Below are positions 29,785-37,271 of a stretch of DNA of 64,000 nt, in pieces. Each line of letters starts with the position of its first letter. Position 1 is the first letter of the stretch. Location of the stretch: NCBI RefSeq assembly GCF_003590945.1, contig NZ_QYUK01000008.1, positions 620,001-684,000 on the forward strand, given 5' to 3'. The notes below the pieces were generated by a model. It was not told the origin of the DNA. It did not search any database and was given only the letters and a program-made list of their open reading frames with translations. The stretch is from Oleomonas cavernae. GTDB lineage: Bacteria; Pseudomonadota; Alphaproteobacteria; Zavarziniales; Zavarziniaceae. The translations under genes and the position numbers were made by a program.

Positions 29785-30398
29785 GGATAGAGCCGGTGAA
29801 CCTTCCATACGTCACCGCCGGCGGGCGTGAACACCACGCGGTCGTGCAGGCGGAACGCCCTATCCTGCCAGAATTCCATGACAGATGGGGTAAGACGAAA
29901 GCCCGACCAGTGCGGCGGCCGGGGCACGGGGCCGCCCTCGAAGCGGGCCGAGACCTCGGCCACCGCCTGGTCGAAGGTGGCGCGGGCATCCAGCGGGCGG
30001 GACTGGGCGCTGGCCCAGGCCCCGATCTGCGAATCGCGCGGGCGCGAGGCGAAATAGGCATCGGCCTCGGCGTCGCTGACCACCGAAATCACCCCTTCGG
30101 CCCGCACCTGGCGCTTCAGGCTCTTCCAGTGAAAATCGATCGCCGCATAGGGATTTTCCAACAATTCCAAGCCCTTGCGGCTTTCGAAATTGGTGTAGAA
30201 GACGAAGCCGCGCGAATCGTAGCCCTTCATCAGCAAGATCCGCACCGAGGGCCGGCCGGCCGTCGTGGTGGCCACCGACATCGCATTGGCGTCATTGGGC
30301 TCGGCTGCCTCCGCTTCCGCGAACCAGGCAGCGAACAGGGCATAGGGGCCACGCTGCGCCAGAATCGCGTCGCTGGACGACGACAAGAGATCAGACAT
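29781..30398 (-). CDS. pdxH: Pyridoxamine 5'-phosphate oxidase
   Basis: A 205-residue FMN enzyme that oxidises pyridoxine or pyridoxamine phosphate to PLP. Diagnostic stretches are [59 protein letters not shown] and [16 protein letters not shown], with HDRVVF and the end WKVHRLYP. The length is standard. The ATG at 30398 is the family start. It is divergent from fabI and leads the CDF gene. Confidence 0.95.
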
Positions 30399-30501
30399 GA
30401 AGAAAACCTCGATTATCGGGAGACAACGGACCACAGGGTGGGCTAAGAGGCAAGGCGGGCGCATGCCCCCGTGATCATGGCAGCCGATCGGCAGCCATGG
30501 C

Positions 30502-30529
30502 TTGAGGGGCAGACGCAGACCGCTATAAT
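30502..30529 (+). promoter_or_regulatory. Promoter for fabI (and aroC)
   Basis: TTGAGG at 30502 and TATAAT at 30524 with a 16-base spacer. The predicted transcript would start near 30536 and carry a leader of about 34 bases including the GAGGGGGATC ribosome site before the fabI ATG. Confidence 0.6.
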
Positions 30530-30569
30530 CCGCGCGCTTTGCATGATCGACCTTGAGGGGGATCAACGT

Positions 30570-31388
30570 ATGTCGACTGGCGCCGGCCTGATGGCCGGAA
30601 AACGTGGTGTGGTGATGGGCGTCGCCAACGACCGTTCCATCGCCTGGGGCATTGCCCAGGCCATCCATGCCCAGGGCGGGCAGCTTGCGTTCACCTATCT
30701 GGGCGAGGCGCTGGAGAAGCGCGTGCGCCCGCTGGCGGCCGAAGTGGGCACGCCGGATGCCCTGATCCTGCCGTGCGATGTCGCAGACCTCGCTTCGATC
30801 GATTCGGTGTTCGAGGCCGTGAAGGCGCAATGGGGCACGATCGATTTCGTGATCCATGCCATCGCCTATTCCGACAAGGACGAGCTCAAGGGCCGCTACG
30901 TCGACACCTCCCCTGAGAACTTCAAGCAGAGCCTCTATATCTCCTGCTATTCCTTCACCTATATCGCCAAGGTCGCCGAGCCGCTGATGCCCGACGGCGG
31001 CTCGCTGCTCACCCTGTCCTACTACGGGGCGGAAAAGGTGATGCCGCACTACAACGTCATGGGCGTCGCCAAGGCGGCGCTCGAGGCCTCGGTGCGCTAC
31101 CTGGCGGAAGACCTGGGCAAGAACCGCATCCGGGTCAACGCGATCTCGGCCGGGCCGATCAAGACGCTCGCCGCCTCGGCGATCGGCGACTTCCGCCTGA
31201 TCTTGAAGTGGAACGAGTACAACTCGCCCCTGCGCCGCAACGTCTCGACCGAGGATGTCGGCGGCGCCGGGCTCTACCTGGTGTCCGACCTCTCGCGCGG
31301 CGTGACCGGCGAGGTGCACCATGTCGACTCCGGCTATCATGTCGTGGGCATGAAGGCGGCCGACGCGCCCGACATCGCGGTGGTGTGA
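30570..31388 (+). CDS. fabI: Enoyl-[acyl-carrier-protein] reductase (NADH)
   Basis: A 272-residue FabI, the last step of each fatty-acid elongation cycle. The divergent SDR motif [16 protein letters not shown] binds NAD. The catalytic YxxxxxxK is in [20 protein letters not shown], with the Tyr and Lys visible, and [17 protein letters not shown] forms the substrate loop. The start is preceded by GAGGGGGAT. aroC begins one base after the stop, so the two genes form a unit, a common alphaproteobacterial neighbour pair. Confidence 0.95.
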
Positions 31389-31389
31389 T

Positions 31390-32459
31390 TTGTCCCATAA
31401 CAGCTTCGGTCATCTCTTCCGCGTCACCACCTGGGGCGAAAGCCACGGGCCGGCGCTGGGCTGCGTCGTCGATGGCGTGCCCCCCGCCTGCCCCTGACCG
31501 AGGCTGACATCCAGGGTTTTCTCGACAAGCGCAAGCCGGGTCAAAGCCGCTTCACCACCCAGCGGCGCGAAGACGACGCGGTGAAGATCCTCTCCGGCAC
31601 CTACGAGGGCCAGACGACGGGCACGCCGATCAGCCTGCTGATCGAGAACACCGACCAGCGCTCGAAGGATTACACCGAGATCGCGCAGAAATTCCGCCCC
31701 GGCCATGCCGACTTCACCTATCAGGTGAAATACGGCATCCGCGACCCGCGCGGCGGCGGCCGTTCGTCGGCGCGCGAAACCGCGGCCCGGGTCGCTGCCG
31801 GCGCCGTCGCCCGCAAGGTCCTGGGGCCGAACATCATGGTGCGCGGCGCCCTGATCCAGGTCGGCAGCCGGCTCATCGACCGGGCGCGCTGGGATTGGGA
31901 CGAAGTCGATCGCAATCCCTTCTTCTGCCCTGATGCGCAGACCGCGGCACTGTGGGCCGAGGATCTGGACGCGGTGCGCAAGGCCGGTTCCTCGGTCGGC
32001 GCCGTGATCGAGGTGATCGCCTCGGGCGTGCCGGCCGGGCTCGGCGCGCCGCTCTACGGCAAGCTCGATTCAGATCTCGCCGGTGCCTTGATGTCGATCA
32101 ACGCGGTCAAGGGTGTCGAGATCGGTGCGGGCTTCGGCGCCGCCGCCCTCACCGGCGAGGAGAACGCCGACGAGATGCGCATGGAGAACGGCCGCGTTAC
32201 CTTCAAGTCGAACAAGGCCGGCGGCGTCCTGGGCGGCATTTCGACCGGGCAGGAGGTGATCGCCCGCTTCGCGGTGAAGCCGACTTCCTCGATTCTCACG
32301 TCCCGCGAAAGCGTCACCGTATCGGGCGACAACACCGATGTCTCGACCAAGGGCCGCCACGACCCCTGCGTCGGCATCCGCGCCGTACCGGTGGGCGAGG
32401 CCATGGTCGCCTGCGTCCTGGCCGACCACCTGCTGCGCCACCGCGCCCAGGTGGGGTGA
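31390..32459 (+). CDS. aroC: Chorismate synthase, frameshifted near its start
   Basis: The last enzyme of the shikimate pathway, converting EPSP to chorismate with reduced FMN. The N-terminus [20 protein letters not shown] is complete. The frame breaks in a run of six C at 31480-31485, and one added C gives [20 protein letters not shown] and the rest: [40 protein letters not shown] and the C-terminal [18 protein letters not shown]. The repaired length is 356 residues, normal for AroC. The start is TTG one base after fabI. An essential gene broken only by a homopolymer argues for a sequence error. Confidence 0.93.
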
Positions 32460-32461
32460 TC

Positions 32462-32809
32462 TCAGGCCGCCAGTTCGACGAGCCGGATCGCCTTCTCAGG
32501 ACAGGCGACGACGCATAAGCCGCAAGCCTGGCAGGCATCGGCGCGCGGGGTGAAGGCCGTCTTGCGGCCGTGCGCGGTCATTTTCAGGCGGATGAAGAAC
32601 GACATGGCGCGGAATTCGTCATCGGGAATGCGGCCGATCTCGAAGACGTCATGGGGGCACACCGCGATGCAGTCCGATTTGCCCTCGCATTTGTTGCGAT
32701 CGACCACGGGCTTGTAGCTGGCCGGTTCGGCCCGGCACAGCTTGCCCGGCCGCTTGGGATCGGCGGCCGCCTTGCGCGCCTTCTCAAGGTCCCTGCTCGC
32801 TCCAGCCAT
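32462..32809 (-). CDS. Ferredoxin-like 4Fe-4S dicluster protein
   Basis: A 115-residue protein. The first cluster site is CEGKSDCIAVCPHDVFEIG and the second is CQACGLCVVACPEKAI near residue 92, each with spacing close to the bacterial ferredoxin CxxCxxCxxxCP rule. The first site has four residues rather than two between its first cysteines, and its fourth cysteine is not obvious, so it may hold a 3Fe cluster or take a ligand from the second site. The partner oxidoreductase is not in the window. The ATG at 32809 is preferred. Confidence 0.8.
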   Translation of the reverse strand: MAGASRDLEKARKAAADPKRPGKLCRAEPASYKPVVDRNKCEGKSDCIAVCPHDVFEIGRIPDDEFRAMSFFIRLKMTAHGRKTAFTPRADACQACGLCVVACPEKAIRLVELAA

Positions 32810-32841
32810 CGACGCCCCCTCTGCGGTTCGCCTGGACGCTA

Positions 32842-34140
32842 TCACTCGCCCAGGGTGATCGTCTCGGCGATTTCGATGCCGAAGCCAGAGAGCCCGACAT
32901 AGGCGAAGGCCGAAGCGGAGGCGGAGGCCGAGATCAGGTTGCGGATCGAGACCACGCCCAGGTCCTTCAGGATCTGGGCGCCCAGACCGATCTCCCGCCA
33001 CTGATGGGTGCGCTGCGCTTCCGAGCCGCCTTCGGCCGATGCCAGGGCGGTCGCCGGGACGCCGGCGGTGCCATCGCGCAGATAGAGCAGGACGCCGCGC
33101 CCTTCCTTGGCGAAGTGTTCCAGCGCCTGGTTCAGCAGCGGGGCGCCGCCGAAGATGTCGGCGATGACATTGGCCCGGTGCAGGCGCGCCGGCACGCCCC
33201 GGCCGTCACCCAGGTCGCCGCGGACGAAGGCGAAGTGCTGTACCGGGTCGAAGGGCGTCACATAGGCATAGCCGGTCAGGGCGCCATGGGGATTGGCGAC
33301 GGGGAAGGTTGCCACCCGCTCGACCAGTTTCTCGCGCGACTGGCGATAGGCGATGAGGTCGGCGACCGAGATGCGTTTCAGCTTGTGTTTCTCGGCGAAG
33401 GCCTCGATCTGCTTGCCCTTCATCACCGTGCCGTCGTCATTGGCCAGCTCGCAGATGACGCCCACCGGCGGCAGGCCCGCCAGCCGGCACAGGTCGACCG
33501 CGGCTTCCGTGTGGCCCGAGCGCATCAGCACGCCGCCGTCACGCGCGATCAGCGGGAAGACATGGCCGGGACGGACGAAATCGCCCGGCCCCATGTTGTT
33601 GTTGGCCAAGGCGCGGACCGTGTTGGCGCGCTGCTCGGCCGAAATGCCGGTGGTGAGGCCGTGGCGGGTGTCGACGGTGATGGTGAAATTGGTCCCCAGC
33701 GGCGCATCGTTGGCCGAGACCATGGGATCGAGCCGCAAGCGTCGCGCCTCGCCCGCGGGCAGGGGCGCGCAGACGATGCCGCAGGTATTGCGAATGATGA
33801 AGGCCATCTTCTCCGGCGTGCACAGGGAGGCGGCACAGATCAGGTCGCCCTCGTTCTCGCGGTCGTCGTCGTCGGTCACGATGACGATCTCGCCCCGGGC
33901 GATCGCCGCGATGGCCTCGGTCACGGTGTGCGCCATGAAGATCTCCTGCGCGGCGCCGATGAAATCGTTCGGCGTCACGGCCCCGTTGGTGACGCGGAGG
34001 ATCAGCGCCGCGGTCTCCCGCGACATCCAGGCCGCCTCGTTGTTGCATAGCTGCGTCACCGCCGCCGGCGAAACGCCCAGGCGCCGCGCCAGTTCGACCC
34101 GTGTCAGTCCCTCACGGTCCAGCCATTCCGTCAGCTTCAT
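32842..34140 (-). CDS. ribB: HTH-domain fusion of 3,4-dihydroxy-2-butanone-4-phosphate synthase with a RibA-like domain
   Basis: A 432-residue protein in three parts. Residues 1-66 are a Cro/XRE-type HTH (RVELARRLGVSPAAVTQLC). Residues 69-275 are RibB, with IVTDDDDRENEGDLI and RSGHTEAAVDLCRLAGL binding ribulose 5-phosphate and Mg. Residues 280-432 resemble GTP cyclohydrolase II but lack its zinc cysteines (HRANVIADIFGGAPL where active enzymes have Cys-rich GDxFGSxRCDC), like the RibBX proteins described in alphaproteobacteria. An internal ATG at 33936 has an AGGAG site at good spacing, so RibB-RibX could also be made without the HTH. The fusion is unusual. Confidence 0.85.
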   Translation of the reverse strand: MKLTEWLDREGLTRVELARRLGVSPAAVTQLCNNEAAWMSRETAALILRVTNGAVTPNDFIGAAQEIFMAHTVTEAIAAIARGEIVIVTDDDDRENEGDLICAASLCTPEKMAFIIRNTCGIVCAPLPAGEARRLRLDPMVSANDAPLGTNFTITVDTRHGLTTGISAEQRANTVRALANNNMGPGDFVRPGHVFPLIARDGGVLMRSGHTEAAVDLCRLAGLPPVGVICELANDDGTVMKGKQIEAFAEKHKLKRISVADLIAYRQSREKLVERVATFPVANPHGALTGYAYVTPFDPVQHFAFVRGDLGDGRGVPARLHRANVIADIFGGAPLLNQALEHFAKEGRGVLLYLRDGTAGVPATALASAEGGSEAQRTHQWREIGLGAQILKDLGVVSIRNLISASASASAFAYVGLSGFGIEIAETITLGE

Positions 34141-34146
34141 GATCGC

Positions 34147-34176
34147 ATCATAGCAAAGAAGAATTTAAGTTAAACT
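34147..34176 (-). promoter_or_regulatory. Promoter with overlapping palindrome upstream of the HTH-ribB gene
   Basis: On the minus strand TTTAAC (34174-34169) and TATGAT (34152-34147) are 16 bases apart. The predicted start site falls on the A of the ATG at 34140, which would give a leaderless mRNA. The -35 lies inside the palindrome AGTTTAACT (34176-34168), a possible operator. Confidence 0.45.
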
Positions 34177-34220
34177 AAAATCTATAAGACAATGCGCGGG
34201 ATTTTTCTCTGCTCGAATTT

Positions 34221-34322
34221 GTCATCCCGGCGAAGGCCGGGATCCATGCCGATATAGATCGAGCTGTTCAGACGAAAGCACGCCCGCGCCGCCAATGGAT
34301 CCCGGCCTTCGCCGGGATGACG
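34221..34322. repeat. Intergenic inverted repeat, family A (copy 3)
   Basis: Arms GTCATCCCGGCGAAGGCCGG and CCGGCCTTCGCCGGGATGAC are exact inverted copies around a centre of about 60 bases. It ends eight bases from the rhomboid stop. Confidence 0.88.
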
Positions 34323-34330
34323 ACAGAAGA

Positions 34331-35014
34331 CTACCCCCACGGGCCGCGCACCGGCCGTAGCCGGGCGCGGAAGGGGCGGATCAGCAGGGCGCCGACCAGG
34401 AAGCCGCCGACATGGGCCGCCCAGGCGATGCTGTCGGCCGCCGCCGCCCCCGAAATCCCGTCGAGGATCTGGATGGCGAACCACAGGCCGATCACCAGGA
34501 AGGCCGGCAAGGGCAGCGGGAAGAAGCCGACCAGCACCACCACCCGCTGGTGCGGATAGAGCATGAGATAGGCGCCCAGCACGCCGGAAATCGCGCCCGA
34601 CGCGCCGATCACCGGCGCCAGCGAGGTGGGATCGATCAGCCCCTCGGCCAGGGCCGCCGCGGCGGCGCAGAACAGGTAGAAGCCGAGGTAGAGCACCGGC
34701 CCCAGGGCATCCTCGACATTGTTGCCGAAGATCCACAGGAACAGCATGTTGCCGGCCAGATGCCAGAAGTCGCCATGCAGGAAGGCATAGGTCAGCAGCG
34801 AGGCGCCCGCCGGCACGGCACCGATGTCATAGCTGGCCGGCACCTCCTGGAACAGGAAGAACGGCACGAAGCCGTAACGCACGGCGTCCACCTCGACATG
34901 CCCCAGCACCTGCTGCAGGGCCCAGACCGCGATGCAGGCGATCATCAGGCCGTAGTTGACGATGGGCGCCTTGCGCGTCGGCAGGCCGTCATAGACCGGG
35001 AAAACCAAGCTCAA
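34331..35014 (-). CDS. Rhomboid-family intramembrane serine protease
   Basis: A 227-residue protein with six or seven transmembrane helices. The catalytic serine is in GASGAISGVLGAYLML near residue 140, and the partner histidine is in AAHVGGFLVGALL near residue 205. An upstream HGDFWHLAGNMLFLWIFGNN carries the conserved His and Asn of the oxyanion region. The family cleaves membrane protein segments, and the substrate is unknown. The start is taken as TTG at 35014, overlapping the methyltransferase stop (TTGA). A second TTG two codons later is possible. No ATG occurs before the conserved region. Confidence 0.88.
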   Translation of the reverse strand: MSLVFPVYDGLPTRKAPIVNYGLMIACIAVWALQQVLGHVEVDAVRYGFVPFFLFQEVPASYDIGAVPAGASLLTYAFLHGDFWHLAGNMLFLWIFGNNVEDALGPVLYLGFYLFCAAAAALAEGLIDPTSLAPVIGASGAISGVLGAYLMLYPHQRVVVLVGFFPLPLPAFLVIGLWFAIQILDGISGAAAADSIAWAAHVGGFLVGALLIRPFRARLRPVRGPWG

Positions 35015-36051
35015 TCCCTCGTGAAGCGCATGGCCTTGGACAGGAAGGCCGGCGCCGCCGCCGCCAGCCGCAGGCCGGCCGCGGCGAAGAGTGCGCCCAG
35101 GTCGGCCTGGGCGTAGGTGCTGAAGTAGGGCTCGTGAAAGGCGCGGGGAAAGAAGTCGAGCAGCCCGTCGAATGGCGGCACGTCGCCCGCCTGCAAGGCA
35201 TCGACCAGGACGACGCCGCCGCCCGGCTTCACCACCCGGGCGAATTCCGCGGCGACACCCTCGCGGATTTTCGGCGGCAGTTCGTGGAACAGGTAGACGC
35301 AGGTGATCGCATCCAGGCTCGCATCGGCAAAGGGCAGCGCCTCCGCCTTGGCCTGCACGAAGTGCATCCGGCCCCGGCCCTCGAGGCGGCGCTGGGCCTT
35401 GCGCAGGTAGGCGGGGCTGAGATCGACGGCGGTTACATCCAGCCGCGGCCAGGTCGCCTTCATGTCGGCGATCAGGCCGCCGGTGCCGCAGGCGACATCG
35501 GCCACCCGGACGGCGCGAAGATCGCGCCCGGCCAGGATCGTGCGCAGGTGCGGCAGGGCCTGGCGGCGCATCGCCCCGCCGGTGCCGGTGAACAGCACCT
35601 CCACCTGGTGGTCGTAGAGCGCGGCGGAACGGTCGCTGAGCCAGCCATCGGTCTGGAAATGGAAATTCTGCAGATAGTAACGCGGATAGATGCGCCGGAT
35701 CTCGTCGTCCAGAACTTCCGCATGGGCGCCCTCGCGGCGCCGGCGCGCCACCTGGGGCAGATCCTGGAAAAAGCGCACGGCGTTGCGCAGGGCCGGTCCC
35801 GGCCGCAGCGCCAGATCGTCGGGCATGGCATAGAGCCCGGCCTCGATATTGGCGAGGTCGCGGGCGAACAGGTCCTCGATCGCCGCCAGCAAGGGGCGCC
35901 AGCCGGTGCCCTGGCCCTTGTTGCTGCGGTCGATTGCCCCGCGCGAGGCCCGGGTCAACCGCTCCGCCGCCAGGTACTGCCCGGCGAACCACGCGACGCG
36001 CATGGCCCGGGCGGTGCCGTAAGCCAGCCGTCTGCCGCGCGATGCCGCCAT
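35011..36051 (-). CDS. Class I SAM-dependent methyltransferase
   Basis: A 346-residue protein. The C-terminal half is a Rossmann methyltransferase with VRVADVACGTGGLIADM near residue 180, DVTAVDLSPAYLRKAQ, and FVQAKAEALPFADASLDAIT followed by HELPPKIREGVAAEFARVVK, the pattern of UbiE-like methyltransferases. The N-terminal half (about 150 residues) is helical and basic and has no recognised domain. The ATG at 36051 follows GAGGTAGGG in the end of the upstream gene. It is coupled to the rhomboid gene by TTGA overlap. The substrate is unknown, possibly a lipid or quinone. Confidence 0.84.
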   Translation of the reverse strand: MAASRGRRLAYGTARAMRVAWFAGQYLAAERLTRASRGAIDRSNKGQGTGWRPLLAAIEDLFARDLANIEAGLYAMPDDLALRPGPALRNAVRFFQDLPQVARRRREGAHAEVLDDEIRRIYPRYYLQNFHFQTDGWLSDRSAALYDHQVEVLFTGTGGAMRRQALPHLRTILAGRDLRAVRVADVACGTGGLIADMKATWPRLDVTAVDLSPAYLRKAQRRLEGRGRMHFVQAKAEALPFADASLDAITCVYLFHELPPKIREGVAAEFARVVKPGGGVVLVDALQAGDVPPFDGLLDFFPRAFHEPYFSTYAQADLGALFAAAGLRLAAAAPAFLSKAMRFTRD

Positions 36052-36055
36052 GACC

Positions 36056-37271
36056 CTACCTCTCGAAGCTCGCCACCAGTTCGATATGGGACGACCAGGC
36101 AAACTGGTCCACCGGCTGAACGTCGCTCAAATGGAAACCGGCGTCGACCAGGATACGCGCATCCCGCGCAAAGGTCGCGGGGTTGCAGGAGACGGCGACG
36201 ATGCGGCGGACGGGCGAGTCGGCCAGGGTCCGGCTCTGCGCCTCCGCCCCGTCGCGCGGCGGGTCGATCACCACCGTGTCGCCGGCATCGAATTCCACCG
36301 CTTCCACCGGCCGGCGATAGAGGTCGCGGCGCAGGGCGGTGATGGCCTTCAGGCCCTTGGCACCGCGCGCGCCCCGGGACAGGGCATCGATCGCCGGCTG
36401 GTCGCCCTCGATCGCCCAGACCGGCGCCAGCTTCGCCAGGGGGAAGGTGAAGGTGCCGCAACCGGCAAACAGGTCGACCACGCGTTTAGGGCTGCCGATC
36501 CGCGCCAGCACCTGCTCGCGCAGGGCCGCCTCGCCGGCGGCGCTGGGCTGCAGGAAGCCGGCCGGCGGCGGGGTGACCAGGGTGCCGCCGAAATCCAGGC
36601 TGGGCGCTGCCCGCTCCAGGATGGTCTCGCCCGCCGCCGTCAGGCGGGCGATATTATGCGTCCCGGCGAAATCGGCCAGCGCCTCGCGTATCCCTAAATC
36701 GATGCGCAGCTTGCCGTCCAGCACCAGGTCCATGCCGCCGGTCGCCACCGTCACCGTCGCCGCCTCGAACCGCACCTGCTTCGCCAGTTCGCGCAGGGGC
36801 GCGATCAGGCGGCCGATGGCCGCCAGCACGGCGGGGCAAGCCGCCAGATCGACCAGCCGGTGATTGCGCCGCTCGTGAAAGCCCAGCAGCACCCGCTTGC
36901 CGATGCGCAGCACAGCAAAGCGCGCGCGCCGCCGCTCGCCCGGCGGCAGCATGATGGTGGGCAGCACGGCCGCCGCGTCGAAGCCGCGATGGGCCAGTGC
37001 CACGGCGACCTGCTCGCGCTTGAACGCGGCCACGGCCTCGGGCGCCAGGTGCTGCATCTGGCAGCCGCCGCAGGTACCGAAATGATTACAGGCGGGCTCG
37101 ATCCGCTGGGGCGAAGGGACGAGGATCGCATCCAAGCTCGCACTCTTGCCGTCGACCGCCAGGCGCACCCGTTCGCCCGCCAGGGTGAAGGGGACATGGA
37201 ACTGCGCTCGTTCCGTCTGCGCAACGCCATCGCCCTGGGCGCCGATGCGGGCGATGGTGGCCTCGACCAAT

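Follow-up and report, generated by a model that had tools for sequence, protein, structure and literature searches.

An in-frame fusion of an HTH domain to RibBX in alphaproteobacteria: a putative self-repressing enzyme with an apparent second start

Introduction

A gene in the 64,000-nucleotide stretch of Oleomonas cavernae DNA analysed here (hereafter the window) raises the question of why an enzyme of riboflavin synthesis should begin with a DNA-binding domain. Its predicted product, HTH-RibBX, carries a helix-turn-helix (HTH) domain of the Cro/XRE type ahead of a complete RibBX protein. How riboflavin synthesis is controlled in those alphaproteobacteria whose ribB has no FMN riboswitch is an open question, and the locus bears on it. 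Enzymes that regulate genes are not without precedent: BirA, PutA and NadR are enzyme-repressors, and RbkR is an archaeal regulator that joins a winged HTH to riboflavin kinase. We found no account of the HTH-RibBX fusion in the open-access literature; subscription papers, including the founding RibBX paper, lay outside the search. The accessible part of a paper on riboflavin in Rhizobiales (PMC9478397) does not mention the HTH. We consider it probable that the gene encodes a bifunctional enzyme-repressor that represses itself and is made in two forms, HTH-RibBX and RibBX alone, with DNA binding, the 5' ends and both products inferred.

Results

The fused gene and its product

The HTH had been read from the sequence as continuous with RibB-RibX, and it is: the gene is a single open reading frame (Table 1), and a survey of relatives returned 85 fused loci. 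The span then given to the feature, 32842-34176, contains this gene, but the frame starts at 34140 on the minus strand and 36 upstream bases had been included. From its N terminus the protein consists of the HTH, a linker, RibB and RibX, a half that resembles RibA but lacks the zinc cysteines. The Pfam match to HTH_3 (residues 7-51) was barely above threshold at 23.9 bits (cut-off 23); DHBP_synthase matched residues 75-265 with 275 bits, GTP_cyclohydro2 matched residues 275-428 with 74.5 bits, and TIGR00506 matched the protein with 236 bits (cut-off 177). No riboflavin kinase domain was found in the window protein, these three Pfam families being its only matches. AlphaFold, given 68 relatives, predicted a five-helix HTH (helices at residues 3-10, 14-21, 25-33, 41-50 and 57-60; pLDDT 74-92 across the block) and, with confidence, RibB, joined by a linker of low confidence (pLDDT 50 around residues 61-70); the model reached a pLDDT of 80.5 with these 68 sequences, compared with a poor 67 with 13 sequences. 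A search of the PDB with the HTH returned no convincing or close solved relative.

Table 1. Predicted features of the HTH-RibBX locus, in window coordinates
Feature	Coordinates	Strand	Basis
HTH-RibBX gene, start ATG, full-length product of 432 aa	32842..34140	-	ORF, Pfam, orthologues
Cro/XRE-type HTH, residues 1-62, recognition helix ~25-33	33955..34140	-	HTH_3, predicted five helices, pN/pS 0.21 in Zavarzinia
RibB (DHBP synthase), residues 72-265, conserved motifs present	33346..33927	-	Pfam 275 bits; motifs
RibX, RibA-like half without zinc cysteines, residues 275-428	32857..33318	-	Pfam, 4i14 alignment, motif scan
-10-like TATGAT, 6 nt before first ATG	34147..34152	-	conserved box in relatives
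-35-like TTAACT inside dyad	34168..34173	-	weak, spacer 15 nt; missed by consensus scan
Operator-like dyad TTTTAGTTTAACTTAAA	34164..34180	-	relatives; only exact site in window genome
Putative internal in-frame start ATG for RibBX alone	33934..33936	-	conserved in relatives
Shine-Dalgarno AGGAG of internal start	33943..33947	-	sequence

The REsEGD, TGISA and GHTEA motifs of RibB were present in 84 of 84 fused proteins. Alignment with RibBA of M. tuberculosis (4i14) confirmed that the zinc cysteines are missing from the RibX half of the window protein, and the zinc motif C-x(8-12)-C-x-C was absent from all 84 fused proteins. Judged by these predicted proteins, HTH-RibBX is not a bifunctional RibBA, its GTP cyclohydrolase II half failing the zinc-cysteine criterion. 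The motif was present in separate RibA-type matches of eight genomes, including the window genome (G000), which also encodes a second RibBX without the HTH (39% identical). The window genome is itself a Zavarzinia, with Z. marina among the nearest genomes. Because the fusion was the sole DHBP synthase in six of the seven fused genomes tested outside Zavarzinia (G075, G193 and G388-G391), DHBP synthase activity of HTH-RibBX is likely, in the absence of any assay.

Two observations concern the genomic setting. In seven of 15 genomes searched (G075, G286, G388, G391, G457, G586 and G688) the RibX half was the sole PF00925 match and an ordinary RibA was not found; such genomes may possibly use the BrbF route, as described for Sinorhizobium in the portion of PMC9478397 available to us. 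In Chelatococcus and Alsobacter (L035-L037), as in the window (30471-34140), HTH-ribBX has aroC nearby, and in L036 also fabI; neither was found near HTH-ribBX in Z. marina within the stretch examined (L033).

An apparently leaderless first start

With a box close before it and no Shine-Dalgarno (SD) sequence, the first ATG appears to be leaderless, the 5' end itself being inferred. Only 4/84 fused loci had an SD sequence at the first ATG (≤ -4.5 kcal/mol), and 51/84 had a YAnnnT box 6-7 nt ahead of it, compared with 4.8% in the control; in 40 of those 51, a TT[GA]-type -35 lay exactly 17 nt upstream. The spacers in Zavarzinia are 15-16 nt, and a sigma-70 consensus scan of 33900-34400 detected no promoter. 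The leaderless start of the sequence-only reading is supported: its TATGAT box is in place and the box is conserved, although the -35/-10 pair of the window, with its 15-nt spacer, is weak. A transcript start far upstream would have counted against that reading; the conserved -10 box directly before the first ATG gives no sign of one. The -35 was also correctly placed inside the palindrome, and in relatives, too, it often lies inside the operator.

Just upstream of the window promoter is a perfect 27-nt inverted pair (34221-34247 and 34295-34321), REP-like, each arm of which forms a small hairpin; the upstream regions of the other three Zavarzinia differ at this site.

An operator-like dyad at the gene's own promoter

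The palindrome in the window is unremarkable when taken alone, so the case for an operator rests on relatives. All four Zavarzinia carry TTTWAGTTTRAYTTAAA directly ahead of the start. The dyad has the consensus TTTYAGTnnnACTRAAA; a second form, TATTAGCnnnGCTAATA, accompanies a different recognition helix. Either form was found with at most 0, 1, 2 or 3 mismatches in 35, 64, 76 or 82, respectively, of the 84 fused 100-nt upstream regions, compared with 0, 0, 0.19% and 1.5% of shuffles (none of 4200 at the one-mismatch level). The eight regions beyond two mismatches belong to G748, G723, G003, G388, G389, G390, G193 and G075. The self-operator-like palindrome first noticed in the window is thereby conserved in most relatives, as a sequence.

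Both operator patterns were derived from the same upstream regions in which they were later scored, and many of the 84 rows are close relatives; the dyad count and uniqueness across the genome are freer of circularity. A search for a perfect 7+3+7 dyad, blind to sequence, succeeded in 43/84 upstream regions and in 0.8% of shuffles. Counted by genus, an operator within two mismatches was present in 25/28. Among unfused relatives it was present in 0/14, with best fits of 4-7 mismatches over 240 nt. The letters of the site track the recognition helix, the QGRVSQ type occurring with TATTAGCnnnGCTAATA and the SPAxVTxL type with TTTCAGTnnnACTGAAA, a pattern to be expected of a site read by the attached HTH.

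When 37 fused genomes were searched in full at no more than one mismatch, 29 had a site at their own promoter, and in 20 of those 29 it was the sole site. For the second operator form, in the Aestuariivirga-like group, 9/13 genomes had a single exact site, at their own promoter; of the remainder, G391 had only a one-mismatch site, which lay elsewhere, and three had none. In some AT-richer genomes a control pattern matched as often as the operator or more often (G716, 11 vs 6; G659, 5 vs 2; G431, 4 vs 3), and most of the extra sites there are therefore noise. A wider regulon in Zavarzinia was considered and rejected, the gene's own site being the sole exact one; at two mismatches G000 had fewer sites (8 forward, 4 reverse) than matches to the control pattern (16 and 19). 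An operator at its own promoter is one mark of an autoregulatory enzyme-repressor, and HTH-RibBX meets this criterion by sequence only, binding and repression being inferred.

The centres of the sites fall into clusters near -60, -33 and -17 relative to the ATG, and 19 regions contain two sites, spaced 27-29 bp apart in 17. In one branch the arrangement of two sites at this spacing, one centred near -60, could suit activation, and a role of the X domain in regulating RibB activity has been reported for Shewanella oneidensis (PMC10012899, available in part). The HTH might then bind the dyad as an activator, or sense a metabolite of the riboflavin pathway rather than the amount of enzyme. We regard this as unlikely, without being far-fetched, given that the promoter-proximal site overlaps the -35 or the -10 in most groups, a repressor-like position.

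A putative internal start for RibBX alone

The ATG and AGGAG pointed out within the gene are present, and their equivalents recur. An in-frame ATG, GTG or TTG lies between the HTH and RibB in 84/84 fused loci, and in 77/84 it is preceded by an SD sequence of ≤ -4.5 (48 ATG, 26 GTG, 3 TTG). The internal codon could be a leftover of the fusion, or chance, with full-length HTH-RibBX the only product. Fusion to an existing ribBX gene would at first have retained the old start, 7/84 fused loci miss the SD cut-off, and such a start occurs by chance in 21.5% of control windows (881/4089; 20.6% of 1803 control codons). Against this, exchanges among Met, Val and Leu at the position remain ATG, GTG and TTG: in the modal column Val is encoded by GTG in 18/19 cases, whereas GTG makes up 36.6% of the Val codons in these genes (binomial 2e-7, kinship ignored). 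The internal start has also been kept through changes in linker length, and none of seven fusions of the same HTH type to CoaBC has an internal SD start. A single full-length product is on this evidence quite unlikely; given the conserved NTG and SD, and their absence from the CoaBC fusions, the internal start seems from codon usage and conservation to belong to RibBX and to have been kept for use.

The opposite reading, that the internal start alone matters, would yield a plain RibBX protein with the HTH frame as a relic or an upstream cis-element. It draws on the frequency of the internal SD start and the lack of one at the first ATG. It is very improbable, however, and would, like a stop codon between HTH and RibB, have refuted the sequence-only reading. 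Purifying selection acts on the HTH amino acids in all six groups tested (pN/pS 0.13-0.36), as would not be expected if translation began at the internal codon alone. The frame is open, without a stop codon between HTH and RibB, in 85/85 fused loci, the position of the -10 box suits the first ATG, and changes in the recognition helix are matched by changes in the operator. That some other regulator binds the dyad, leaving the HTH with another role such as protein contacts, cannot be met with binding data, of which there are none, but is hardly credible when site and fusion co-occur, all 14 unfused relatives lack the site, and its letters change with the helix.

Distribution and history of the fusion

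In a sample of Hyphomicrobiales, the order of G193, 74 of 397 genomes carried the fusion, spread over 28 genera and eight families. The HTH itself was found in 99 of these 397, on RibBX in 74, on CoaBC in seven and on other frames in 18. No RibB was found downstream of a short-frame HTH in nine loci (eight genomes plus a second match in G765); ten further short-frame matches lay outside this check. A class-wide sample of 385 genomes, searched with the HTH profile, contained the RibBX fusion in five (G000, G001, G002, G075, G193); in six, an HTH of this type sat on other proteins. Within Zavarzinia the fusion is present in G001, G002 and G003 and absent from G004; G005, a 75% complete genome, gave no match. 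Hosts outside Zavarzinia include Pseudochelatococcus, Chelatococcus, Alsobacter (two), Aestuariivirga and two unplaced Rhizobiales. Of the 85 loci, one (L161, in G674) stands outside all counts over 84; L032 and L033 were excluded as duplicates of L005 and L003; and in L127 (G584), whose start is GTG, the match began one residue late and the upstream region is shifted by 3 nt.

A tree of 102 proteins, built by a quick search with long branches flagged, required three changes, and a predicted history of one gain and two losses (G286, G363) fits it. G286 has neither HTH nor operator, although its genus-mate G584 is fused. The Zavarzinia proteins are nested among those of Hyphomicrobiales, next to Pseudochelatococcus, and this placement suggests that Zavarzinia probably acquired HTH-RibBX by transfer.

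A possible second target in one family

An FMN riboswitch as the control of the window gene was rejected, none being present at 30000-37000 or in G000-G003. One search of 11 fused genomes found none in any; another, with stricter filters, covered 64 of the 74 fused survey genomes and found riboswitches in 14, leaving 50 without any (two more genomes fell in the other search and eight outside both). At the loci of fused and unfused relatives, Rfam matched suhB and a tRNA only.

In nine of the 14 genomes with a riboswitch, all of family f213 and belonging to three genera, an operator with no more than one mismatch starts 14-91 nt ahead of the riboswitch, which is followed by a gene for an EamA transporter (by Pfam in seven, by near-identical sequence in two). 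The operator thus precedes 9/9 FMN-riboswitch EamA genes in fused genomes and 0/5 ribH riboswitches; at these other five, G431 included, where Pfam identified ribH behind the riboswitch, the best operator fit had 5-7 mismatches, and at four riboswitches of unfused genomes it had 4-7. Nine genomes together had 15 extra operator-like sites, of which three (G688, G716, G659) stand ahead of a ribN-like gene with its FMN riboswitch; the other 12 had no riboswitch and, where inspected, no evident riboflavin gene, several not having been inspected gene by gene. Alphaproteobacterial EamA genes with an FMN riboswitch are of the ribN type, a known riboflavin importer, according to the part of PMC4418817 available. 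From this riboswitch arrangement we infer that the f213 EamA proteins are RibN.

The proposed link between riboflavin supply and transcription gains support from predicted operators at ribN-like genes, but in one family only, which is not Zavarzinia. In f213, at L210, L213 and L232 among other loci, one ribN-like gene has both an operator at its promoter and an FMN riboswitch, an arrangement that would place a single importer under double control.

Discussion

Proposed mechanism

We propose that transcription would start at or next to the first ATG, so that leaderless initiation would yield HTH-RibBX and internal SD-led initiation RibBX alone. RibB is a dimer in solved homologues. Dimers of HTH-RibBX, paired through RibB, would set two HTH heads on the 17-bp dyad and occlude the promoter; binding should repress, because the dyad covers promoter elements. 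Mixed dimers of headed and headless subunits would bind DNA poorly, and repression would consequently rise with headed dimers. The gene would in this way hold its own enzyme level steady and, in one family, that of a ribN-like importer as well; the RibX half may carry an effector signal. In Zavarzinia the regulator would be a horizontally acquired second RibBX, itself its only clear target.

A bolder version treats this self-repressing gene as a homeostat, in which a mixed dimer, having only one HTH, would be unable to hold the palindrome, and the ratio of leaderless repressor-enzyme to SD-led headless enzyme, together with flavin state, would set expression. The homeostat would in turn be one case of a Cro-like leaderless HTH cassette that, in other alphaproteobacteria, is carried by CoaBC, SucA, a glutamine synthetase and a NarJ/TorD-like protein and would provide each enzyme with an operator of its own. 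We advance this joint proposal only tentatively, thinking it slightly more apt to fail than to hold. One gene seems, in any case, to combine an enzyme, a repressor and a built-in headless isoform, and its operator, start sites and partner promoter are all predicted to the base.

Relation to known systems

By its domains, HTH-RibBX is best described as a RibBX protein with an added regulatory head, one that would work like RbkR, BirA, PutA and NadR and yet belong with none of them. The RibB motifs are intact and the X half lacks zinc cysteines, as in RibBX; unlike RibBX, it adds an N-terminal HTH, a putative operator of its own, an apparently leaderless start and a conserved internal start, none of which is mentioned in the RibBX passages available to us. 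RbkR likewise fuses a riboflavin enzyme to a DNA-binding domain controlling riboflavin genes, but its enzyme is riboflavin kinase, its HTH is winged, and it belongs to another domain of life. BirA, PutA and NadR are biosynthetic or catabolic enzymes with a DNA-binding part that represses their own pathway; their enzymes are unrelated, however, and HTH-RibBX appears in most cases to control one target and to have a headless form as a second product. For two proteins from one gene, the closest parallel is VirF30 and VirF21 of Shigella, with two in-frame starts, two products of which one is from a leaderless mRNA, and autoregulation; as far as the accessible part of that study goes, the leaderless VirF form is the short one, from an internal promoter, whereas in HTH-RibBX the long form would be leaderless and the short form SD-led (PMC5101355).

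The same type of HTH on other proteins

In family f204, seven loci (L170, L172, L173, L175, L176, L178, L179; G713, G639, G656, G556, G738, G750, G726) carry an HTH of the same type in frame on CoaBC, identified in L176 by TIGR00521 (401 bits). All seven have a TA-box 6 nt ahead of the ATG, the leaderless box, and a dyad like ATTACATnnnATGTAAT about 25 nt ahead of it, with 6-7 of 7 pairs in four and a weaker match in three. If CoaBC and other such fusions behave like HTH-RibBX, enzymes would have become self-regulating repeatedly, through leaderless genes that captured an HTH. The same HTH type was also seen at the N terminus of four further proteins, each in one genome: 2-oxoglutarate dehydrogenase E1 (L047, G326), a nitrate-reductase-delta/TorD-like protein (L048, G230), an unrecognised protein of 198 aa (L046, G293), and glutamine synthetase (L049) in G004, the Zavarzinia genome without HTH-RibBX.
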